The notes beneath the pieces were generated by a model. It ran no database searches. It had not been told where the DNA came from and saw only the letters and a program-made list of their open reading frames with translations. Of a stretch of 64,000 nucleotides of DNA, positions 4,509 to 20,129 are shown one piece after another. This DNA comes from Oscillospiraceae bacterium (GTDB taxonomy: Bacteria; Bacillota; Clostridia; Oscillospirales; Ruminococcaceae). The position numbers and the translations under genes are program-made. How positions within the stretch are numbered: position 1 is the first letter of the stretch; each line of letters starts with the position of its first letter. The DNA lies in the NCBI GenBank assembly GCA_017848115.1, contig JAGAKZ010000031.1:62001-126000 (forward strand), written 5' to 3'.

Positions 4509-5939
4509 TTAATCCCAGTTGAGCTGATCTGGAAGAGCTTCAGCAACCTTTGTCTGGAACTGAACCATAGCATCATCAACAGATGAATATGTGCCTTCAG
4601 CATATCCCTGAACAGCGTTTGTGAACTGTTCCTTGATCTTAGCATCGTATGGAGTGATCTTACCAGCCATGTCGATATTCTTAGCTACTCCTTTAAGAAC
4701 TGCGAAGTGGTTCTGTCCGCCGAGAACAGGAGCACCCTTGTATTCACCCTTATCGATTATAGCTTCCATAACCTTTGAGTTGGACATGTATTCGCCCTGC
4801 TTTTCAGCGTAAGCTGTAGCGCCTTCTTCGTTGATTGTGAAGAATTCGATAAATTCCTTAGCAAGTTCCTTGTTGTTGCATCTTGTTGAAGGAGCAAGCC
4901 ATGTACCGCCCCAGTAGAATTCCTGTGGGCCAACTACACATTTCCACTTACCGAATGTTTCTCCGCCTTCGCCACCTGCAGCTTCAGCAAGGATTGTATC
5001 ACCGAAGCCCCATGTTGAAACGAAGAAACCGAGAACGTTGCCTGAGTTACCGAGTGGCTTCCATTCGTTAGCCCACTGAGCAACCTTTGTTACGTAACCG
5101 TTGTTCCAGAGCTTGCTAGCAAATTCAGCATAGTCCTTGCAGTAGTCATCAACAACGAGCTTGTTGTCTGAACCAACCCAAGCTGTATCACGTGAACCTG
5201 CATATACCTGCCATACACCACCGAGTGTAGCAGAGAGAGCAACCTTCTTATCGCCTGAAGCTGTCATAAGTTCTTCAGCTGTTGCGAGGAATGCATCCCA
5301 GTCCTTAACCTTTTCCTGCATCTGTTCAGGTGTTTCTACGCCGAGGTACTCCTTAGCGAGGTCTTCTCTGTAGCAGAAACCGCCTGCTGCTGCCTGCCAT
5401 GAGATACCCTTGAGTGTACCGTCAGTTGTTGACTTACCGATTTCAAGAACGTATGGATATATATCACCGAAATCTCCTTCGTCGATACCGATTTCGCTAA
5501 GAGCCATTGTTGCAGAATCATCGTTGATGTACTTGAGAGCCCAGTCAGCTTCAAGGAATATGATATCTACATCATTATCAGCTTCGCTGAGGTACTGATC
5601 GTAGAGTTCAGCAGCTTCACCGCCCTGACAGTCAAAGTTCTTTATTTCGATTTCTGAAGGATCGTGACCTGTCTTTTCGCAGAAGAGGTCTACCATTGGC
5701 TGGCTGTCGTTAGCGTTCCAGCAAAGGATTGTGAGCTTGTCGCCTTCAGCAGCGTCGCCGTTATCTTCCTTAGATGAGTCATCAGCCTTTGAATCGTCCT
5801 TGGATGCTGAGTCTGAGTTTGAGCTGTTGTTAGCTGTTGATGATGATGATGATTCCTTTTCATCGCCACAACCGTAGAGAGCTGTTGCTGACATTGCAAG
5901 AGCTGCAAGTAATGCTAAAGTTTTCTTTAAATTTTTCAT
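4509..5939 (-). CDS. Sugar ABC transporter substrate-binding lipoprotein
   Basis: This 476-residue extracellular solute-binding protein (family 1, MalE-like) has a lipoprotein signal peptide ending in LYGC, with Cys24 as the lipidated residue. A Ser/Asp/Lys-rich linker of about 50 residues (about 28-70) tethers the binding lobe to the membrane. The fold then starts at KLTILCWNAND. Several exposed Trp and Tyr residues (for example near AQWANEW and EFYWGGTW) fit sugar stacking, but the ligand is unknown. ATG 5939 is chosen because AAGGAGG lies 11 nt upstream and it starts the signal peptide; longer in-frame starts add unrelated residues. The LacI gene lies 65 bp upstream. A 16-bp AT palindrome sits in that gap at 5968-5983. 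Confidence 0.9.
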   Translation of the reverse strand: MKNLKKTLALLAALAMSATALYGCGDEKESSSSSTANNSSNSDSASKDDSKADDSSKEDNGDAAEGDKLTILCWNANDSQPMVDLFCEKTGHDPSEIEIKNFDCQGGEAAELYDQYLSEADNDVDIIFLEADWALKYINDDSATMALSEIGIDEGDFGDIYPYVLEIGKSTTDGTLKGISWQAAAGGFCYREDLAKEYLGVETPEQMQEKVKDWDAFLATAEELMTASGDKKVALSATLGGVWQVYAGSRDTAWVGSDNKLVVDDYCKDYAEFASKLWNNGYVTKVAQWANEWKPLGNSGNVLGFFVSTWGFGDTILAEAAGGEGGETFGKWKCVVGPQEFYWGGTWLAPSTRCNNKELAKEFIEFFTINEEGATAYAEKQGEYMSNSKVMEAIIDKGEYKGAPVLGGQNHFAVLKGVAKNIDMAGKITPYDAKIKEQFTNAVQGYAEGTYSSVDDAMVQFQTKVAEALPDQLNWD

Positions 5940-6004
5940 TTCTAAATTTTCCTCCTTAATGATTGTATTATATTTAAATATAAAATATAATAGGCATATA
6001 AACG

Positions 6005-7021
6005 TCACGTCAGAGCTTTTACCGTCTGACCCTTAAGCAGTCTGGTTTCAACAACCACCTGCCGTTGTATATCGGAAATCTCCTCACCGTTTATCCTCTT
6101 TAGTAAAAGCTCTGCAGCATTCACTCCAAGGAGGTGTGTATCCTGATATACCGTCGTTATACTTGGCTCCATCAACTGACCAATCTTAATGCCGTCATAT
6201 CCCACTACGGACAAATCGTCCGGAAGCTTCAGTCCCATCTCTCCTGCCGCCATAAAAGCTCCGAATGACGCAATATCATCAGGCATTATAAGGCAAGTCG
6301 GCGGTTCATAAAGCGACAACATTTCCTTTGTCAGTTCCTTCGCAAGACCGATATCGTTATATCTTCCCTGTCTGACATAATCAATCTCAACAGCAAGCCC
6401 CAACTGTTTCATCGTTTCGATGTATGTATCAAGTCTCACCGTAGTAACCTGCGAGGTGTCACCGTAAATATAACCTATCTTCCTGTGTCCCATACCATAA
6501 ACATACTCTATGAGATCTCTCATTCCCTGACGGTTATCCGAATAAACGGAATAATCACGCTTTGAAAAAAAGTCGATCGAAACAACCGGAAGATCACTTC
6601 TTAAGAGTGTACATATGTCCCTGTCATAAAAGTCAACACACGCCACAAGCACTCCCTCAACATTTCTGTATCTGCAATGCTCATAATATGAAAGTTTATT
6701 TCCATCGACTGTTTGCGAACCGATAAAAATAATATCATATCCTTTTTTTTCAACAGTTACCTTAAAACTATCAATAACAGAAGAAAAATAGTTGTGACTG
6801 AGTCCGTTGCCAAGCTTATCGGCATAAATAATACCGATGGTATTTGTTTTGCTTGTCTTTAATGCCTTTGCCTGAGAGTTAGGAAAGTAACCAAGTTCCC
6901 TTGCTACATCCCTTACCTTCTTTTTAGTCGCCTGACTGATATCCGAACAATCATTTAACGCCTTGCTCACAGTAGCAACTGACACACCGCATTTTTTTGC
7001 AACATCTTTTATAGAAACCAT
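6005..7021 (-). CDS. LacI family transcriptional regulator
   Basis: This 338-residue regulator has an N-terminal DNA-binding domain, VSIKDVAKKCGVSVATVSKA (about residues 2-21), then the hinge helix NSQAKALKTSKTNTIG and a periplasmic-binding-protein-like sugar-sensing domain. ATG 7021 follows GGAG at a 6-nt gap; an earlier TTG at 7027 is less likely. It is upstream of, and in line with, the sugar importer genes, so it most likely represses or activates them and itself in response to the imported sugar. The importer genes may be read from its promoter or from a weak promoter in the 65-bp gap. I could not identify a clear LacI-type operator with a central CG. Confidence 0.9.
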   Translation of the reverse strand: MVSIKDVAKKCGVSVATVSKALNDCSDISQATKKKVRDVARELGYFPNSQAKALKTSKTNTIGIIYADKLGNGLSHNYFSSVIDSFKVTVEKKGYDIIFIGSQTVDGNKLSYYEHCRYRNVEGVLVACVDFYDRDICTLLRSDLPVVSIDFFSKRDYSVYSDNRQGMRDLIEYVYGMGHRKIGYIYGDTSQVTTVRLDTYIETMKQLGLAVEIDYVRQGRYNDIGLAKELTKEMLSLYEPPTCLIMPDDIASFGAFMAAGEMGLKLPDDLSVVGYDGIKIGQLMEPSITTVYQDTHLLGVNAAELLLKRINGEEISDIQRQVVVETRLLKGQTVKALT

Positions 7022-7065
7022 GTTCAACTCCGGATAAACTTTTTTTAATGTTTATCTTATATAAT

Positions 7066-7094
7066 AATATACGCTGAAATCGAGCGAAAGTCAA
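7066..7094 (-). promoter_or_regulatory. Promoter of the LacI-family gene
   Basis: On the minus strand TTGACT (7094-7089), a 17-nt spacer and TATATT (7071-7066) give a strong promoter about 45 nt upstream of the ATG. Confidence 0.65.
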
Positions 7095-7295
7095 TGAATA
7101 ATACAAAATTGTTATCTTTATTGAATATCTTTCACAACCATTTTATATTTTTTTAGTGCAACATCACAATAAAACGTGAAATAAAAATGAAAAAATAACA
7201 AAACGGTTAAAATTTCTTTGTAATAATGTAACCACTCCGTATTTTTTCAAGTCAGCATTCGTAACAAACTTTATTTTCATCAAAAAGTCCCTTAC
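7095..7295. other. AT-rich spacer between divergent promoters
   Basis: The 335-bp gap between the LacI gene and the small plus-strand gene holds only the two divergent promoters listed. Between them the DNA is AT-rich, with no ORF, RNA gene or strong hairpin that I can support. Confidence 0.5.
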
Positions 7296-7828: not shown

Positions 7829-9205
7829 TTACTTTATGTTTCTTCTCTGAGCCGCACGCATTTCACGACGTTTCTTAGCACGAAGGTTTATTACATAAAT
7901 AACTACAACAATATATATCACAGATAAGCCAAAGGCTATCTTCAAAGCCTGTTTAAAAGCAGATGACTTAAAATATGTTTCTATAACAGCAGTAGCATAC
8001 TTTATCTTTGATACTTCAACGTCACTGTAAGTAACAAGGTCTACCGTCTGTATCTCATTTCCCTGATACTTGAATGTTGCACTGCCTATTACATCACCTG
8101 CTTTTACAGGTGCGTTAAGTTCTTCGTAGTACAGTTTTACATCCCAGTCAATAGTGCTTGTATCTACATTATTCGGCCAGATGCTCCATACTTCTTCTGC
8201 AGGTTTCAGATTTATAAAATCTCTGTCTTTGGCATAGTTTATCTTTACAGTATCTATTTCGTTATTTTCTTCAACTACAACTCTGTAGGTAATAGTTTCA
8301 AAAGCCCAGTTAAATATTTTACGTGCATCAATAAGGTGTGTAAACTTGGTTTCTCCGGACATTTCAAGAGGAGAGTTCATAAGAACAAGAAGATAATTCT
8401 GTCCATCACGCGACGCTCTTGTAATAAGACATCTTCCCGACTGGTTTGAGTTACCTGTTTTTATACCCTTTGTTCCCTGATAGTAGTGCTCACTGTCAGG
8501 ATCCATCATAAGATTTACGTTTTCAAGGTCTATGCCGCTCTCATGTACATTTGTCGCACCGGTATTGAATGAATAAGTAGATGAGATCTCTGAAAATCCA
8601 GGCTGATCAAGTGCATAACGAGTAATGAGCATAAGATCTCTTGCTGTGGAGGTCTGTTTTTCATCATAAAGCCCGTGAGGATTTGTAAAGTGTGTATTTA
8701 CAGCACCTATCTCCTCAGCTTTCTTATTCATCATACTGACAAAATTCTGAATACTTCCGTCACCTGCTACATATGCCAGGGTGCTTGCTGCCTCACAGGA
8801 TGATCTGAGAAGCATTGCATACAGCAGGCTTTCTATTGTAAGCTGTTCTCCATCGTCTATGTAACAGGTAGTAACTTCGCTGTAAGGAAATTCTTCTTCA
8901 GGATATTTTTCACGATAAATATCAAACTCCTCAAAAATTTCCGAAGGAACTTCAACTACCTTTGAGAGATCCTTTTCTTTTTCAAGTACCACTACAGCTG
9001 TCATTACCTGTACCAGCTGTGCGGGAGCCTTTATGTCATCAGCTTTTTTCTCATACACTATCGTTTCTGTGTCAAGATTGTACAGTATAGCAGAGTCACT
9101 GTAAATCGTTTCTGACGGGTTGAAAGATATTGCCTCAGCCGTATCAGCAGGAACCATGCTAAGAAAAATGATAAATACTGTTAAAACGCTTAAAATCTTT
9201 TTCAT
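7829..9205 (-). CDS. PBP5/peptidase S11 family protein lacking catalytic Ser and Lys
   Basis: This 458-residue exported protein has the layout of D-alanyl-D-alanine carboxypeptidases (DacA/PBP5): signal peptide (about 1-25), S11 domain, C-terminal beta domain and a membrane helix near 417-438 with a basic tail. The family SxxK motif sits before MTA. Here it reads PAQLVQVMTA, so the nucleophile Ser is Gln63 and the general-base Lys is Gln66. The SxN motif is SSC (135-137). KTG is intact (249-251, GIKTGNS). It therefore cannot work by the known acyl-enzyme route and is probably a pseudoenzyme that binds or scaffolds peptidoglycan. Nothing else suggests decay: the frame is intact, GGAGAGGG precedes the ATG, and a promoter is present. 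Confidence 0.85.
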   Translation of the reverse strand: MKKILSVLTVFIIFLSMVPADTAEAISFNPSETIYSDSAILYNLDTETIVYEKKADDIKAPAQLVQVMTAVVVLEKEKDLSKVVEVPSEIFEEFDIYREKYPEEEFPYSEVTTCYIDDGEQLTIESLLYAMLLRSSCEAASTLAYVAGDGSIQNFVSMMNKKAEEIGAVNTHFTNPHGLYDEKQTSTARDLMLITRYALDQPGFSEISSTYSFNTGATNVHESGIDLENVNLMMDPDSEHYYQGTKGIKTGNSNQSGRCLITRASRDGQNYLLVLMNSPLEMSGETKFTHLIDARKIFNWAFETITYRVVVEENNEIDTVKINYAKDRDFINLKPAEEVWSIWPNNVDTSTIDWDVKLYYEELNAPVKAGDVIGSATFKYQGNEIQTVDLVTYSDVEVSKIKYATAVIETYFKSSAFKQALKIAFGLSVIYIVVVIYVINLRAKKRREMRAAQRRNIK

Positions 9206-9245
9206 TTATTTCCCTCTCCAAAAAAATAATTTTTCATACATAATT

Positions 9246-9314: not shown

Positions 9315-9343
9315 TTTACGTGAAGTATTTTTTATGTTAAAAT
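9315..9343 (+). promoter_or_regulatory. Likely promoter of the metallophosphoesterase gene
   Basis: TTTACG (9315-9320), a 17-nt spacer and TAAAAT (9338-9343) lie upstream of the ATG at 9400. Confidence 0.45.
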
Positions 9344-9399
9344 ATATTTTAAGGATAATTTTTTCCTATAAAATATTATTTGATAAAACAGGTGGTAAG

Positions 9400-10068
9400 A
9401 TGATATATATTACAGGCGATACGCACGGGGAATTTTCCAGGTTTAAAGATTCCACGACCAGAAAAATAAAAAAAGGTGACACGCTTATAGTGTGTGGCGA
9501 CTTCGGCTTTATCTGGGACGGAAGCAAAACCGAAAAACAGATACTTAAAAAAATAGGAGAACTAAAGTACACCGTTGCCTTTATCGACGGCTGTCATGAA
9601 AATTTTAAACTTCTCTCCGAATATCCCGAAATACAGTGGAACGGCGGAACCGCACGTGCAATCGGCGGAAAGCTTGTGCATCTTAAAAGAGGTCAGGTAT
9701 ATACAATAGAAGGAAAAAAATTTTTTACCTTTGGCGGCGGTCACAGTCAGGATATTGATATACGCCGTGAAACCAACACTTGGTTCGAAGAAGAACAACC
9801 AACTCTCGAAGAAGTAGAAGAAGGTGTTAAAAATCTTCTCGCTCACGACGGAAAGGTTGACTACATAATAACACATGAACCTCCGCATTCGCTGAAAAAA
9901 TGCCTTGATCTTGATATGCTTCACCGTCTTGAAACCGATACTTTTTTTGAACAGATACTTTCTGAGTGTAAATTTAATAAATGGTTTTTCGGAAAATGCC
10001 ACATGAACAAAATCATTCCACAAAAGTTTTACGCACTTTTTGATAATGTAATAAGACTTGAAGAGTAA
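9400..10068 (+). CDS. Calcineurin-like metallophosphoesterase
   Basis: This 222-residue cytoplasmic protein carries most of the metallophosphoesterase metal ligands in order: GDTHG (Asp7, His9), GDFG (Asp34), GCHEN (64-68), ITHEPP (His159) and a terminal GKCH (198-201). Two positions differ from the usual family pattern: the normal GNHE has Cys65 in place of Asn, and the usual GHxH has Lys199 in place of the first His. Activity may be changed or lost. The FFTFGGGHSQD segment is common to a clostridial subgroup of unknown substrate. ATG 9400 is chosen over an upstream start because the beta-strand MIYITGDTHG begins here, with AGGTGG 4 nt upstream. It is a single gene with its own terminator. 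Confidence 0.8.
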   Translation: MIYITGDTHGEFSRFKDSTTRKIKKGDTLIVCGDFGFIWDGSKTEKQILKKIGELKYTVAFIDGCHENFKLLSEYPEIQWNGGTARAIGGKLVHLKRGQVYTIEGKKFFTFGGGHSQDIDIRRETNTWFEEEQPTLEEVEEGVKNLLAHDGKVDYIITHEPPHSLKKCLDLDMLHRLETDTFFEQILSECKFNKWFFGKCHMNKIIPQKFYALFDNVIRLEE

Positions 10069-14089: not shown

Positions 14090-15250
14090 TTACTTTACTA
14101 TCTCGGATTTTAATATTTCAAGTGCTTTGTTAAGCTGTTCATCTTCGACAGACGAACTATCAGTAATACATTCCACATCCGGAACAAGTCCTATTTTATG
14201 GTAGCAGTCTGTTCTGGTAGTTTTGTACTTTGCAACTGTAAGCACCAGCGTACTTTTATCACTGAGAGTAAAAGTATCCTGCATAACACCCTTGCCGTAG
14301 GATGTAGTTCCTACCAGTTTTGCATCTCTGAAATCTCTGAGTGATGCTGCAAAAAGTTCGGCACCACTTGCTGAACCACCGTTAATAAGTACTGTCATAG
14401 GTATATCCAGTTCATTATTATCCGACTCAACTATAGTCGTACTTTCTCCGTTTCTGTAAATTGCAACAGCTATTTCACCTTTGGGAAGCAACGGATCAAG
14501 ACAATCCTCTACTGAATATACAAGACCTCCGCCGTTATTTCTTACATCAAATACAAACCCCTTTGCGCCAAGGCCAAGAAGCTCATCAAGTTTTGCCTGG
14601 AACTGTTCATATGTCTTTCCATTAAATTGTGAAATGGATATATACCCGATATCTTCTTCAAGCATTTCTCCATGAACTGTAACGATATCAAACGTTTTAC
14701 GCACAACTTTATGATCTGTAAATATACCATCACGTTTTACAGTGATCGTAACCTGAGTATTTTCGTCACCTTTTACACTCTGGACCGATTCTTCATAGCC
14801 GACTGTGAGAACATCTTTTCCGTCAATCGCTGTTATGATATCACCAACAAGAAGTCCTGCTTCCAGTGATGGTGAATTTTCAGGTATCTCAATTATCTCA
14901 ATATACCCCTCAGCTGACTTTGTGACAGTAATTCCTATTCCGACATACAGCCCTGCATGGTTTGTACTTGCCTCTTCAGATTCTTCGATGTTATTGTAAC
15001 ATGAATATATATCTCCAAGACCCGATACATACCCTGTCAAAGCCATATTAACAAGCTTCTCCATATCTTCGGGTTCTTCGTAATAATATGTGTCTATCAG
15101 AGTTTCTATCTCCGACATAAGCTCATATGTCTTATATTTTTTATAATAACTTCTGCTCATAAAAAAATATGTCAACGAAAATGTTATCATAACTGCTGCA
15201 GAAACCAACGCCACAACAGTATGAACAGACACTCTTTTTTCATTTTTCAT
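14090..15250 (-). CDS. Carboxyl-terminal processing protease (S41 family, CtpA-like)
   Basis: This 386-residue membrane-anchored serine protease has an N-terminal membrane helix (about 12-31), a PDZ domain (about 100-180) and an S41 catalytic domain. The Ser/Lys pair is visible as NGGSASGAE (Ser295) and SYGKGVMQ (Lys320, with Gln324 four residues on), matching the spacing in Prc/CtpA. Such proteases trim exported or wall-associated proteins. Position in the cluster after ftsE-ftsX and the M23 hydrolases suggests it processes those hydrolases or their partners. ATG 15250 is preferred; the further upstream in-frame ATG at 15292 lies inside the terminator hairpin of the preceding gene. Confidence 0.88.
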   Translation of the reverse strand: MKNEKRVSVHTVVALVSAAVMITFSLTYFFMSRSYYKKYKTYELMSEIETLIDTYYYEEPEDMEKLVNMALTGYVSGLGDIYSCYNNIEESEEASTNHAGLYVGIGITVTKSAEGYIEIIEIPENSPSLEAGLLVGDIITAIDGKDVLTVGYEESVQSVKGDENTQVTITVKRDGIFTDHKVVRKTFDIVTVHGEMLEEDIGYISISQFNGKTYEQFQAKLDELLGLGAKGFVFDVRNNGGGLVYSVEDCLDPLLPKGEIAVAIYRNGESTTIVESDNNELDIPMTVLINGGSASGAELFAASLRDFRDAKLVGTTSYGKGVMQDTFTLSDKSTLVLTVAKYKTTRTDCYHKIGLVPDVECITDSSSVEDEQLNKALEILKSEIVK

Positions 15251-15281
15251 ATTATCAACTGACTTTCCCTGTATTTTTAAC

Positions 15282-15333
15282 AAATACATCATGTCAGCAA
15301 AAATTCTGGTTTCTCTGCCAACATGATGTATTT
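15282..15333 (-). terminator. Terminator after the M23 hydrolase pair
   Basis: A perfect 13-bp stem AAATACATCATGT / ACATGATGTATTT encloses a smaller inner stem and is followed on the minus strand by a T-rich stretch. Confidence 0.7.
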
Positions 15334-15348
15334 TTAGTTTATTGATTC

Positions 15349-16779
15349 TTAATATGGACTTACCACAGATAAAGGATCTATCGTATTACCATTTTTATGG
15401 ATCTCGAAATGGAGATGATTTCCTGTAGAATATCCTGTAGTACCAACATATCCTATAGTCTGCCCCTGTGTAACATACTGTCCTGAAGAAACGCATATGG
15501 ATTCACAATGAGCATACAATGAAGAATATGTACCGTCACTGTGTGCAATAGTTACATAGTTTCCGTATCCACCGCCACAGCCACAGCTGTAGTTTTTACC
15601 CACATTATGTGTACAGCCATTCTTAGCAGTTACAACTACACCATCGGCTATCGCTACTATAGCTGCGCCCGCTATTCCTGCCTGTCCTAAGTCTATACCC
15701 TTATGGAAACTATTATCAAAACTTCTATAACCATAATAACTTGTAGGTGGCAGATAGTAACCCGGAACAGGCCATACAAAACCTTGTGATGACGATACAG
15801 CCTGTGTTGTAACTGACGGTTTCTGACTCTGCTGTGCTGCAAGCTTTGACTCTTCAGCTTTTCTTGATTCCTCTGCACGTCTTGACTCTTCAAGTTTTCG
15901 TGATTCTTCAGCTTTCTTTGATTGTTCAATACGTATAGCTTCCTGTGCCGCTGCTATATCAGCCATGAACTTTTCATGTTCTTTTTCCTTCTGTGCAATA
16001 GCACTTTCTTTAGCTGCTATATCAACCTGTATTTCCTGCTTGTCAGTCTGCAGTGAGTCAAGTTCCTGCTGAGTCTTTTCATTATCCTTTATAAGCTGTT
16101 CAAGTAAAACATCAAACTCTGCTTTTTTATCTTCAGATTCTGCCATACTTGTCTCAAGTTCATTCTGCTTTGCCGCAAGTGCCTTATTAAGCTCATCAAG
16201 TTCTTCAAGCTGAGTACAGAGTATGTCTATCATTTCATCATCACGCTCTGCTATCTTTGACACCAGTTCCATCTTTGCAAGCAAATCATAGAAGTCTGCT
16301 GAACCTGTCAGAACTGCTGCCAGATTATCATTTCCTGACATATATGATACTCTGAGTCTTTTCTTAAAAAGCTGCATACTGCGTTCAATTTCTGCTTTTT
16401 TTATAAATATATCAGACTCTATAACAAGAATACGATTTTTATTTTCTGTTATATCATCATCAATCTGTTTTATCTGATTTACCACATAATCAATATTCTG
16501 ATTTTGCAGTGCTATTTTTTCATTAAGTGTTTCCTGATATTCAAGTTTGGCTTTCTCATCTTCTACGATCGTCGCATACTTTTCCTGAGATTTTTTTATC
16601 TCTTCCTGCAATTGCTTGATTTTCTTTTCATTTTCAGTCTTTAATACCTCAAGTTCTTCTATCGTCTGTGTTGCGTTGATATAATCAGTACTTTTGATAT
16701 CATTTTGTATAAATGAATTAACCCAAACAAGCCCTATAACTGAAAATGCCAGTAACTTAGCCTTTAAACTTTTGTTCAT
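15349..16779 (-). CDS. Coiled-coil M23 peptidoglycan hydrolase (EnvC/PcsB-like), copy 1
   Basis: This 476-residue exported protein has a hydrophobic N-terminal signal or anchor, a long coiled coil (about 35-280), a charged repeat region, a short linker and a C-terminal M23 (LytM) domain. The zinc and catalytic residues are present: His359 and Asp363 in HKGIDLG, His424 in YAH, and His455/His457 in HLHFE. An insert before GNYV has CTH..SCGC cysteines, unusual for an exported domain and perhaps a disulfide. Proteins of this shape are activated by FtsEX through the coiled coil to cut wall at the septum. It lies 33 bp after copy 2 and is clearly its paralogue. Confidence 0.9.
   Translation of the reverse strand: MNKSLKAKLLAFSVIGLVWVNSFIQNDIKSTDYINATQTIEELEVLKTENEKKIKQLQEEIKKSQEKYATIVEDEKAKLEYQETLNEKIALQNQNIDYVVNQIKQIDDDITENKNRILVIESDIFIKKAEIERSMQLFKKRLRVSYMSGNDNLAAVLTGSADFYDLLAKMELVSKIAERDDEMIDILCTQLEELDELNKALAAKQNELETSMAESEDKKAEFDVLLEQLIKDNEKTQQELDSLQTDKQEIQVDIAAKESAIAQKEKEHEKFMADIAAAQEAIRIEQSKKAEESRKLEESRRAEESRKAEESKLAAQQSQKPSVTTQAVSSSQGFVWPVPGYYLPPTSYYGYRSFDNSFHKGIDLGQAGIAGAAIVAIADGVVVTAKNGCTHNVGKNYSCGCGGGYGNYVTIAHSDGTYSSLYAHCESICVSSGQYVTQGQTIGYVGTTGYSTGNHLHFEIHKNGNTIDPLSVVSPY
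15845..15930 (-). repeat. 18-bp coding repeat in M23 copy 1 (four units)
   Basis: The repeat encodes KAEES, RKLEES, RRAEES, RKAEES, a six-residue unit ending in EES. It forms a highly charged spacer between the coiled coil and the catalytic domain. Confidence 0.7.
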
Positions 16780-16812
16780 TTTTTTCTGTAAACCCCTTTA
16801 ATATACCATATA

Positions 16813-18330
16813 TCAATAAAAATTCATAGGATCAACTGTACTTCCGTTTTTGATGACTTCAAAATGAAGATGATTTCCTGTTGAATATCCTGTTGTTCCT
16901 ACGTATCCTATTGTCTGCCCCTTTGTTACAGACTGTCCTGCTGATACACAAACTGATTTACAATGAGCATACATCGTGGAATATGTACCATCAGAATGTA
17001 CTATACTTACATAATTTCCATATCCTCCACCGCAACCACAGCTTGAATATTTTGAATAATTATGTGTACAACTATTAACAACTCTTGCTACAACACCATC
17101 ATCTGCTGCAACAATAGCAGTTCCTGCAATTCCCCCACCTGCAATATCTATTCCTTTATGGAAACTGTTATCAAAACTTCTATATCCATAGTTACTTGAT
17201 AATGAATAAAATCCCGGAACTGGCCATGCATAACCGTCCGAAACTGACGGTGCCTGAGTAGTAGTAACCGGTGGCTGTGTCGCTGCTGTAGTAGCCGGAG
17301 GAGCTGTAACAGCGGGAGCCGACGTTACTGACGGTTGCTGACTTTGCTGTGCTGCAAGCTTAGATTCCTCAGCTTTTCTTGATTCTTCTGCACGTCTGGA
17401 TTCCTCAACACGTTTTGACTCTTCAATTCTTTTGGATTCTTCAAGTCGCTTGGATTCCTCAGCTTTTTTTGACTGTTCGATACGCAAAGCTTCCTGTGCA
17501 GCCGCCAAATCAGCAAGAATCACTTCACGTTCCTCTTCTTTTTGAGCGATTGCCTTTTCTTTCGCTTCAATATCTACTATAATTTCATTCTTATCACTGT
17601 TAAGCACTTCAAGTTCTCTCAATGTATCTTGATAGTCAATTGAAAGCTGTTGCAGTACAACATCAAATTCTTCCTTTTTTGCCTCAGCATCAGCCATACT
17701 TATATCCAGTTCATTCTGTTTTGCAATAAGTGTCTGATTGAGTTCATCAAGTTCTTCCAGCTGTGTGCGAAGTGTATTAACTATTTCATCATCACGCTGA
17801 GCTACCTTTGAAACAAGTTCCATTTTTGCAAGCAGGTCATAAAAATCAGCACTTCCTGTAAGAACTGCTGCAAGGTTATCATTTCCTGACATATACGAAG
17901 CTCTGAGTCTTTGTTTAAAAAGCTCCATACTGCGTTCTATCTCGGCATTTTTTATAACTATATCGCTCTCTATAACGAGAATACGATTTCTATTTTCTTC
18001 TATATCTTCATCAAGCTGATTTATCTGACCAACAACATAGTTTATATTCTGATTCTGCAGCTCTATCTTCTCATTAAGTGCATTTTGATACTCAAGTTTT
18101 GCATTCTCATCTTTTAAAATGCTGTCATACTCTGCCTGAGATTTTTTTATTTCTTCCTGTAACTGCTCAATTTTTTTGTTATTCTCAACTTTGAGAGTTT
18201 CAAGCTCTTCTATTGTCTGTGTAGCTTTAATGTAATCAGTATCTTTAGTGTTGTTATGTATGCAAGAATTAATTGAAATAAGTCCTATAATCGAAAACGC
18301 CAATAACTTAGCTTTTAAGCTTTTATTCAT
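16813..18330 (-). CDS. Coiled-coil M23 peptidoglycan hydrolase (EnvC/PcsB-like), copy 2
   Basis: This 505-residue paralogue of copy 1 shares its first 20 residues almost exactly (MNKSLKAKLLAFS), the same coiled coil and the same M23 domain. Metal and catalytic residues are His391, Asp395, His456, His487 and His489. It differs in having six rather than four charged repeat units and a Thr/Pro/Ala-rich linker (VTAPPATTAATQPPVTT) before the catalytic domain. It follows ftsX by 98 bp, fitting the FtsEX-activated septal hydrolase role. A weak promoter (TTGCTC, 17 nt, TAATAT) may lie in that gap. The duplication is recent enough for strong similarity but both copies look intact. Confidence 0.9.
   Translation of the reverse strand: MNKSLKAKLLAFSIIGLISINSCIHNNTKDTDYIKATQTIEELETLKVENNKKIEQLQEEIKKSQAEYDSILKDENAKLEYQNALNEKIELQNQNINYVVGQINQLDEDIEENRNRILVIESDIVIKNAEIERSMELFKQRLRASYMSGNDNLAAVLTGSADFYDLLAKMELVSKVAQRDDEIVNTLRTQLEELDELNQTLIAKQNELDISMADAEAKKEEFDVVLQQLSIDYQDTLRELEVLNSDKNEIIVDIEAKEKAIAQKEEEREVILADLAAAQEALRIEQSKKAEESKRLEESKRIEESKRVEESRRAEESRKAEESKLAAQQSQQPSVTSAPAVTAPPATTAATQPPVTTTQAPSVSDGYAWPVPGFYSLSSNYGYRSFDNSFHKGIDIAGGGIAGTAIVAADDGVVARVVNSCTHNYSKYSSCGCGGGYGNYVSIVHSDGTYSTMYAHCKSVCVSAGQSVTKGQTIGYVGTTGYSTGNHLHFEVIKNGSTVDPMNFY
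17360..17475 (-). repeat. 18-bp coding repeat in M23 copy 2 (six units)
   Basis: Six units of a six-residue repeat ending in EES (KAEES, KRLEES, KRIEES, KRVEES, RRAEES, RKAEES). This is two units longer than in copy 1, consistent with slippage-driven length change. Confidence 0.7.
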
Positions 18331-18383
18331 ATTTCTTTATATCCTTTCAGTTTCCCTAATTTTTACCTAATAATATTATTTTA

Positions 18384-18421
18384 GTGTTACTGTATGAGCA
18401 AAGCGACTACAACAGTAACAC
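18384..18421 (-). terminator. Hairpin after ftsX (possible weak terminator)
   Basis: A perfect 10-bp stem GTGTTACTGT / ACAGTAACAC lies 8 bp after the ftsX stop. The tail on the minus strand is AT-rich but lacks a clean T-run, so termination may be partial. Confidence 0.5.
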
Positions 18422-18428
18422 CGAATAT

Positions 18429-19328
18429 TTACACTTTAAGATGCTTTGATGTGCTTACAACACTTCCTATAGCACCAATAACAGAACCAATACATAAATA
18501 AACCGCAAAAACAATATATTTTATATTGTCAAACGGCAACGGTTCAACAACTCCGATTATCTCCCAGAATGATATATCATTTGTAATGATATCCATAAGA
18601 GCCGTATATCCGAAATATGTAATGACTGATGCACCAACACCTGAAACAAGACCTGTGAAAAGTCCTTCGAAGAAAAACGGTGTACGAATAAATGAGTTTG
18701 TAGCACCTACATACTTCATAATATTTATTTCTCTTCTTCTTGTGTACACGCTGGCTTTTGTAGAGTTTGATATCATTATTATCGAAACTGCCACAAGAGC
18801 AACCAGAAGTACTATAGATATAACAGAGACTACATTTTTAAGTTTGTTGAGAATCGTTGCAAAATCAGTCGGTGCCTTTACAGAATCCGTAAATTCAAAT
18901 GAAACCATCTGATCTACTGTTTCTGTTATAAGTGATGTATCTTTAATCTGAATATTAAAAGCATTTGGCAACGGGTTATCATCCCTGAGCTCTTCAAAAA
19001 CACTCTCATAGCCCTCCATCTGCTTTATATAATCCTCAAGAGCCTGTTCTCTGGGGTAATATTCAACAACCGCTATATTTTTCAGATTTTTTATAGCCTG
19101 CTCGGCTGAAATAATATCATCACCGACAACGTCATCCTTTAAAAATAATACTATCTCATTTTTACTTTCTATTGAAGTAAGGAGTATTTCGACATTCATC
19201 GCAAACAGGGAAAATACGCCTACCAACAGTAATGATACAGTAAGCACACAAGTTGTTGCTATTCCCATTACTCTGTTATGCCATATGTTTTTAAACCCCT
19301 GTCCGATAAGATAAAATAAACTACCTAT
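18429..19328 (-). CDS. ftsX: Cell division protein FtsX (non-standard start inferred)
   Basis: FtsX is the membrane half of FtsEX. It has four membrane segments and a large outer loop that activates wall hydrolases. The frame from ATG 19268 gives 279 residues, but in-frame upstream codons encode GSLFYLIGQGFKNIWHNRV, which matches the conserved FtsX N-terminus. There is no ATG, GTG or TTG in that stretch before the stop TGA at 19337-19335. The best-placed start is ATA at 19328, 12 nt after AGGAG, giving 299 residues, the usual family length. A sequencing slip or a true non-standard start are both possible. ftsE lies upstream and the M23 hydrolases downstream. Confidence 0.8.
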   Translation of the reverse strand: MGSLFYLIGQGFKNIWHNRVMGIATTCVLTVSLLLVGVFSLFAMNVEILLTSIESKNEIVLFLKDDVVGDDIISAEQAIKNLKNIAVVEYYPREQALEDYIKQMEGYESVFEELRDDNPLPNAFNIQIKDTSLITETVDQMVSFEFTDSVKAPTDFATILNKLKNVVSVISIVLLVALVAVSIIMISNSTKASVYTRRREINIMKYVGATNSFIRTPFFFEGLFTGLVSGVGASVITYFGYTALMDIITNDISFWEIIGVVEPLPFDNIKYIVFAVYLCIGSVIGAIGSVVSTSKHLKV

Positions 19329-19352
19329 ACAAAATCACTTCTCCTCTCAATC

Positions 19353-19438
19353 AAAAAAAACACACGTATAAATTTTTAAAGATCTCACTATGCTATTGAA
19401 AAAACAGAACACAATCTGCCCAAACTAAATTTATACGT
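19353..19438 (-). terminator. Long inverted repeat plus T8 between ftsE and ftsX
   Basis: ACGTATAAATTT (19364-19375) and AAATTTATACGT (19427-19438) are perfect 12-bp arms with a 51-nt loop. On the minus strand the stem is followed by GTG then eight T residues, just before the ftsX ribosome site. It could act as an attenuator or terminator within the operon. Confidence 0.45.
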
Positions 19439-20129
19439 CTTCCTCCATATATGAGTCGTCACCGTCTATTATATCATCATAAATGACAGTACCTTGATTA
19501 ATATTTATCAGACGACCTCCAAAATGCTTAACAAGCTCATGCTCATGTGTAACCATGACAACAGTTGTACCGCATTGATTTATCGCTTTGAGAAGACCTA
19601 CTATTTCATGCGAAAGCTCAGGGTCTACATTTCCTGTTGGCTCATCTGCTATAAGCAGTTTCGGGTCATTTACAAGTGCTCTTGCAAGTGCGACACGCTG
19701 CTGTTCACCGCCGGAAAGCTCCGTAGGATATGATTTTGTTTTATTCTGCAGTCCTACAAGACCGATAACATAGGAAACTCTCTTTTTTATGTACGATCTC
19801 GGTGCATTTATAACCCTGAGAACAAATGCAATATTTTCATACACTGTCATGGTAGGTATGAGTCTGAAATCCTGAAATACAACTCCTATCGTTCTTCTGA
19901 ACTTTGGAATACGATTTCTTTTCAAGGTTCTGAGATTATATCCATTTACCATAACCGACCCGTCGGAAGCATCCACTTCCTTCAAAAGCAATTTTATCAG
20001 CGTACTTTTACCTGCACCCGACGCACCAACAATAAACGTAAAATCACCGTCTTCTATTTTTATGTCAATGCCTTTTATGACATTCTGACCTTTGTTATAT
20101 GCGACAGATACGTTTTTAAGTTCAACCAC
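19431..20129 (-). CDS. ftsE: Cell division ATP-binding protein FtsE
   Basis: This 232-residue ABC ATPase drives FtsX. Walker A is GASGAGKST (about 35-43), the Q-loop FQDF, the signature LSGGEQQR and Walker B LLIADEPTGNVD, with the switch His in VTHEHEL. The C-terminus has an acidic tail (DGDDSYMEEDV) longer than in many FtsE proteins. The start is a GTG at 20129, with GAGGCGG 7 nt upstream; an ATG two bases upstream is out of frame. A hairpin separates it from the regulator gene upstream and another from ftsX downstream. Confidence 0.95.
   Translation of the reverse strand: MVELKNVSVAYNKGQNVIKGIDIKIEDGDFTFIVGASGAGKSTLIKLLLKEVDASDGSVMVNGYNLRTLKRNRIPKFRRTIGVVFQDFRLIPTMTVYENIAFVLRVINAPRSYIKKRVSYVIGLVGLQNKTKSYPTELSGGEQQRVALARALVNDPKLLIADEPTGNVDPELSHEIVGLLKAINQCGTTVVMVTHEHELVKHFGGRLININQGTVIYDDIIDGDDSYMEEDV

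Follow-up and report, generated by a model that had tools for sequence, protein, structure and literature searches.

Penicillin-binding proteins are defined by acyl-serine chemistry. In active PBP5-type enzymes, the Ser of the SxN motif and the Lys and Thr of the KTG motif position the substrate and its C-terminal carboxylate. An S11 domain followed by a C-terminal domain and a C-terminal membrane attachment is the layout common to DacB from Bacillus subtilis, PBP5 (DacA) from Escherichia coli and the protein described here. For PBP5, one report lists Ser44, Lys47, Ser110 and Lys213 together as active-site residues (PMC3394801). The Streptomyces K15 D,D-transpeptidase has Ser-Gly-Cys in the place of SxN (PMC12073871). 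In the same source, the group of inactive beta-lactamases that includes 5IHV from Burkholderia ambifaria is described as having Gly and Ala in the place of Ser and Lys, with preserved fold and catalytic-core geometry (PMC12073871). In the same way, Csd2 from Helicobacter pylori and degenerate LytM factors are reported to be wall-hydrolase homologues without catalytic activity, which cooperate with active hydrolases or regulate them (PMC9507126, PMC8416486).

The window analysed here is a stretch of 64,000 nucleotides from an Oscillospiraceae bacterium (assembly GCA_017848115.1, contig JAGAKZ010000031.1, positions 62,001 to 126,000). It carries an S11 gene in which the codons of both the catalytic Ser and the catalytic Lys encode Gln.

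The S11 Gene and Its Protein

The features of the gene are collected in Table 1. The matches of the 458-aa protein to Peptidase_S11 (137.3 bits for a cut-off of 27.6) and to PBP5_C (38.4 bits for a cut-off of 21.2), together with its N-terminus and C-terminal helix, make it a member of the S11 family by descent. These two domains are its only Pfam matches at E 0.001, and it does not fall within the class A beta-lactamases. The first-pass annotation, made from the sequence of the window, had proposed that the KTG motif, the domain layout and the membrane anchor are kept; Peptidase_S11, PBP5_C, KTG at residues 249-251 and a hydrophobic C-terminal helix are all present.

Table 1. Positions in the window of the S11 gene, its motifs and its divergent neighbour.
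Feature	Positions	Strand	Basis
S11-family (PBP5-type) D,D-carboxypeptidase homologue, 458 aa, predicted catalytically dead by sequence	7829..9205	-	ORF and Pfam
Q63-L-V-Q66 replacing the SxxK catalytic motif	9008..9019	-	codons read and S11 alignments
SxN-equivalent Ser135-Ser136-Cys137	8795..8803	-	alignment
KTG motif Lys249-Thr250-Gly251	8453..8461	-	alignment
Signal-peptide-like N-terminus, residues 1-25, hydrophobic core ~4-22	9131..9205	-	hydropathy; cleavage site judged by eye
Peptidase_S11 domain, residues 32-278	8372..9112	-	Pfam
PBP5_C domain, residues 310-397	8015..8278	-	Pfam
C-terminal hydrophobic (membrane) helix, ~residues 423-441, ahead of a basic tail	7883..7939	-	hydropathy
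Ribosome-binding site GGAGAGGG, spaced 6 nt from the ATG of the S11 gene	9212..9219	-	direct reading
Calcineurin-like metallophosphoesterase, divergent from the S11 gene	9334..10068	+	recurrent neighbour

The in-frame ATG found at position 9400 may be the true start of the metallophosphoesterase. A cell-wall cluster (14090-20129), separated by a few genes from the S11 gene on its upstream side, comprises an ftsE-like ABC ATPase, ftsX, a tandem pair of PcsB/EnvC-like M23 peptidases (of which one was scanned) and an S41 PDZ peptidase. A promoter scan gave 16 sites against 10.3 +/- 3.1 expected by chance, which is uninformative, and no tRNA gene was found in the window.

Absence of the SxxK Motif

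The reverse complement of positions 9008-9019 reads CAG CTG GTA CAG, that is, codons 63-66 (Q-L-V-Q). In S11 alignments, Q63 falls on the column of the nucleophile Ser and Q66 on that of the base Lys, so that the codons and the alignments both bear out the two replacements announced by the first-pass annotation. An active D,D-carboxypeptidase needs a nucleophile Ser, a general-base Lys and an SxN (or its variant SxC) with a KTG; the window protein has Gln63 and Gln66 for the former two and carries SSC and KTG for the latter. An alternative Ser-x-x-Lys was looked for in its catalytic domain and none was found, as S399-KIK and S415-AFK both lie beyond the domain.

It should be emphasized that SSC had also been taken for a degenerate SxN, and this does not hold. 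Among the SxxK-intact orthologues, the third residue of the motif is most often Cys (40/58), and K15, with its SGC, indicates that an SxxK active site tolerates SxC (PMC12073871).

The two Gln residues are shared by the whole genus as far as orthologues were found. QxxQ, SSC and KTG occur in 10/10 genus orthologues (53-100% identity), which come from 10 of the 11 genus genomes, the window's own included; the eleventh, G009 (87% complete), has only paralogues of the S11 gene. Because these ten orthologues in 11 genus genomes are all QxxQ, a single-strain error is ruled out, and the loss of both catalytic residues is confirmed as real at the sequence level. With nucleophile and base both gone, the window protein should be unable to carry out acyl-serine catalysis, judging from the missing residues.

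The Lys-Less Clade in the Bacterial Family

Of the 297 genomes of the family, 281 gave a match with an E value of 1e-30 or below. The 130 read (five of the genus and 125 others) were taken with the most window-like first, and relatives from named contigs were added to the genomes read beyond the genus. The sample leaves out 151 matching genomes, among which further losses may exist; G029 and G182, two genomes of Lys-less genera, are also outside it.

In most of the family orthologues read, SxxK is intact, generally accompanied by SAC or SAN and by KTG. Nested among these intact orthologues, 37 that lack the Lys form a single clade, with an SH-aLRT of 99 in the 112-row and 149-row trees and a bootstrap of 100 (SH-aLRT 99) in a 62-row tree built from these 37 and 25 chosen others. 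The motif columns were excluded from all three trees. The truncated L242, devoid of the motif region, was dropped, and the second tree (149 rows) also omits the long-branch L002 and L044 (4557). In this 149-row tree, no SxxK orthologue lies inside the 37-row clade. In the sample read, the clade spans nine genera (g1, g6, g20, g28, g29, g56, g86, g108 and g117), and L036-L038, from named contigs, are three further rows of it.

Residues 63/66 of the Lys-less proteins are QQ, PN, QN, SD, SN, SQ, AQ, HQ or AN. At least 5 changes have occurred at position 66, where only Q, N and D are found, and at least 10 at position 63, which takes Q, S, P, A or H. The simplest reading of these sequences is that the Lys was lost once, in the ancestor of this Ruminococcus-type clade, and the Ser later and repeatedly. 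L145 is also QxxQ and belongs to a different subclade of the 62-row tree, so that QxxQ probably arose at least twice.

Seven scattered orthologues outside the clade have also lost SK: L196, L198, L200, L246, L247, L249 and L258, which carry GA, EQ, AD, AA, ST, PK and SM at these positions. In four of the seven, KTG is altered as well (KSG, KLA, IVG, KAA). The seven amount to repeated losses outside the main clade.

Conservation of the Pocket and Selection on the Gene

As a reference, 58 SxxK orthologues were used, among which 33 positions are at least 95% invariant. The 58- and 93-row SxxK counts and the seven scattered losses exclude 13 distant or paralogous loci, including the degenerate L044. 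In the Lys-less clade, the least retained of the 33 positions are Lys66 (0/37) and Ser63, which eight of the 37 members retain. After these rank Glu120, replaced mostly by Asp, Ala62, which is Ala or Gly, and Gly251, where small residues occur. The latter, the third residue of KTG, is relaxed, being kept in 22/37 rows and replaced by A, S or C in 15/37. Ser135, Lys249 and Thr250 are invariant, both in the Lys-less clade (37/37) and in the SxxK orthologues (93/93). With Lys66 gone, Ser63 mostly gone and these three residues invariant, the chemistry appears to be lost, whereas the pocket keeps its opposite wall. However, the scattered non-SK orthologues keep Ser135 in 7/7, Lys249 in 6/7 and Thr250 in 3/7; since these dead proteins mostly keep the first two, Ser135 and Lys249 may be maintained for folding only.

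Two new residues are nearly invariant in the Lys-less clade, Ser136 (35/37) and His290 (36/37). They belong to five clade-specific constraints (S136, H290, A294, E316 and W343), compared with 27 and 7 in two 18-row control clades, the second of which includes two non-SK rows. An entropy comparison had hinted at a new interface in the C-terminal domain; this candidate was rejected, as clade-specific residues are at least as numerous in the control clades.

In the dN/dS analysis (NG86), many pairs are saturated at silent sites (dS > 1) and give rough values. The values range from 0.02 to 0.10 for Lys-less pairs (10 of 12 pairs gave a value) and from 0.02 to 0.07 for SxxK pairs (7 of 10). Among pairs with dS < 1, values are 0.03-0.09 for four Lys-less pairs versus 0.02-0.06 for four SxxK pairs. 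In sequence terms, the Lys-less gene behaves as one under purifying selection similar to that of its SxxK relatives, and its reading frames are intact.

Paralogues, Sporulation and Gene Neighbourhood

All 11 genus genomes contain an S11 paralogue of the SxxK type, and so do 24/24 Lys-less genomes outside the genus, for which the best-scoring further S11 match per genome was considered (L036-L038, from named contigs, lie outside this check). Four S11 proteins were found in the window's own genome (81% complete), two SxxK, the QxxQ protein described here and one AxxK. Compensation by extra S11 copies was rejected, the excess being slight (102 matches in 24 Lys-less genomes versus 87 in 24 SxxK genomes, a few of them fragments).

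A second odd S11 subfamily occurs in the same genomes: L002 (window's own genome, G000:C63:58669-59337), L023, L033, L233, L236 and L237. Its members show AxxK, TxxK or SxxK, with NAN for SxN and KAS, KAG or KAC for KTG; some of them are devoid of the nucleophile Ser. Furthermore, a Ruminococcus MAG carries two adjacent S11 frames (L044:4557-5927 and 5923-7245), degenerate as GxxE/SGS/KYS and AxxK/RGN/QNG.

A SpoIVA match was found in 29/34 Lys-less genomes versus 40/46 others. The five Lys-less genomes without such a match retain the S11 gene, and four of them belong to the genus: G001, G002, G005 and G008, three of which are at least 97% complete. The other six genus genomes searched have a match, a possible sign that part of the genus has lost sporulation. 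Three pairs among the four genomes without a match gave dN/dS values of 0.02-0.05, with dS > 1.8 in two of them.

Neighbours were counted for loci with about 0.9 kb or more upstream, a rule that sets aside 6 Lys-less and 5 SxxK loci; the counts leave out the locus of the window as well. The metallophosphoesterase lies upstream in 23/30 Lys-less and 23/60 SxxK loci and is always divergent where found. Being common to both sets, this neighbour supports the orthology of the SxxK and Lys-less genes. Within the genus, the gene order is largely conserved (lysS, two proteins of no Pfam family, metallophosphoesterase, S11).

Possible Functions of the Lys-Less Protein

The clade-wide loss, the low dN/dS, the kept domain layout and anchor and the recurrent neighbour all argue for a conserved S11 pseudoenzyme, as the first-pass annotation had suggested; by these sequence criteria, this reading is well supported. 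The Lys-less protein probably has a new, non-catalytic job in the cell wall. Two explanations that deny this do not fare well. A normal, active carboxypeptidase, its motif unrecognised or its two codons wrongly assembled, could invoke the otherwise canonical layout and nothing beyond; it is very improbable, given the agreement of ten orthologues from 10 separate genus genomes, the 37 rows without Lys and the domain devoid of any further SxxK. Still harder to credit is a decaying relic of a sporulation-type carboxypeptidase whose function is lost. DacB is indeed the best profile match among solved structures, and the catalytic residues have gone. However, dN/dS stays at about 0.02-0.10 with intact frames, and this candidate was rejected because Lys-less and other genomes have a SpoIVA match about equally often and the S11 gene survives without one.

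Among the non-catalytic roles, we give roughly even chances to a membrane-anchored S11 protein whose groove would hold a D-Ala-ended stem peptide or a partner and so guide wall substrate. According to this model, the gene product would be an extracytoplasmic, membrane-anchored S11 protein devoid of acyl-serine catalysis. The Lys would have been lost first, in the ancestor of the Ruminococcus-type clade, with the Ser drifting later, while the fold, the anchor and the substrate-positioning half of the pocket were kept. This half-pocket could bind D-Ala-ended stem peptides non-covalently, or a partner docking in the same groove. The bound wall substrate might then be steered towards active enzymes or protected for them, for example the cell's own S11 paralogues of the SxxK type. 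Stem-peptide binding or regulation of a carboxypeptidase fits the invariance of Ser135, Lys249 and Thr250. Points that weigh against this model are the possible role of Ser135 and Lys249 in folding, the relaxed Gly251, the Ser63 retained by eight members, a number of clade-specific constraints no higher than in the control clades, and the silent-site saturation of many dN/dS pairs. In a narrower version, which we put forward tentatively, the protein of this Lys-less clade of gut bacteria would be a non-hydrolysing membrane receptor for D-Ala-ended stem peptides that reports on pentapeptide-containing wall or shields it, on behalf of other enzymes; the swap of Lys66 for an amide or carboxylate residue would let the pocket hold the peptide uncut.

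The chief rival to groove binding is a pure scaffold, a pseudoenzyme that would act as a structural or allosteric partner through its surface, its PBP5_C domain or its membrane helix, with an empty pocket whose residues merely hold the fold. We regard it as a serious if lesser possibility. It accounts for the retention of the C-terminal domain and membrane helix and for the drift of position 63 among Q, S, P, A and H, where bulky residues could block the pocket, and Ser135 and Lys249 mostly survive in the scattered losses too. It accounts less well for Thr250 and for a position 66 limited to Q, N or D, both of which hold in 37/37 Lys-less rows, whereas the seven scattered losses keep Thr250 in fewer than half and have A, Q, D, A, T, K and M at position 66. 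The few clade-specific constraints also speak against it. A repurposed catalysis, in which Ser135 (or the new Ser136) and Lys249 would form a shifted Ser-Lys pair for another reaction, seems improbable. The equivalents of Ser135 and Lys249 adjoin each other in PBP5-type active sites, both residues are present in every Lys-less row, and the new Ser136 and His290 are nearly as constant. However, the SxxK orthologues keep Ser135 and Lys249 just as invariantly (93/93), so that no new role is needed to explain them, and we know of no precedent for such a shifted pair. Groove binding by a non-catalytic protein is the reading preferred here.

A long-conserved S11 lineage without the base, and mostly without the nucleophile, would mean that the fold was retained for another cell-wall purpose. 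The Lys-less proteins are probably mislabelled when automatic annotation calls them D-Ala-D-Ala carboxypeptidases, which are beta-lactam targets. Furthermore, intact and dead orthologues, together with several intermediate states (SxxD, SxxN, SxxQ, AxxQ, AxxN, HxxQ, PxxN, QxxN, QxxQ), form a natural series in which the passage from wall hydrolase to non-catalytic protein can be tested.

Comparison with Known Systems

Csd2 and the LytM factors are metallopeptidases (M23), whose fold is unrelated to that of S11, the family of the window protein. The best solved relative of the latter is DacB (PDB 3mfd; profile E 5.5e-60), homologous over most of its length, and PBP5 (1nzo) is also a homologue (profile E 3e-45). 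DacB has an SxxK (ASITK in the alignment) where the window protein has Q63 and Q66. In the same way, PBP5 keeps Ser44 and Lys47 (PMC3394801), and K15 (1es5, the structure of an S216A mutant), another S11 relative, keeps its SxxK (TGSTTK). The 5IHV group resembles the window protein in belonging to the same superfamily and in having both nucleophile and base replaced. However, 5IHV is a class A beta-lactamase and not an S11 protein, and its SxN and KTG are also altered (GDK, KAG).

No report of an S11 pseudoenzyme or pseudoenzyme clade was found in the open-access literature, the broader searches covering titles and the starts of abstracts. Inactive members of the superfamily and degenerate wall hydrolases are already known; within that literature, as far as these searches reach into it, an S11 pseudoenzyme clade would be new. 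A further comparison lies within the bacterial family, where SxxK-intact orthologues such as L039, L130 and L131 are the same gene according to the tree (38-39% identity to the window protein): they carry SxxK, SAC and KTG, whereas the window protein carries QxxQ, SSC and KTG.
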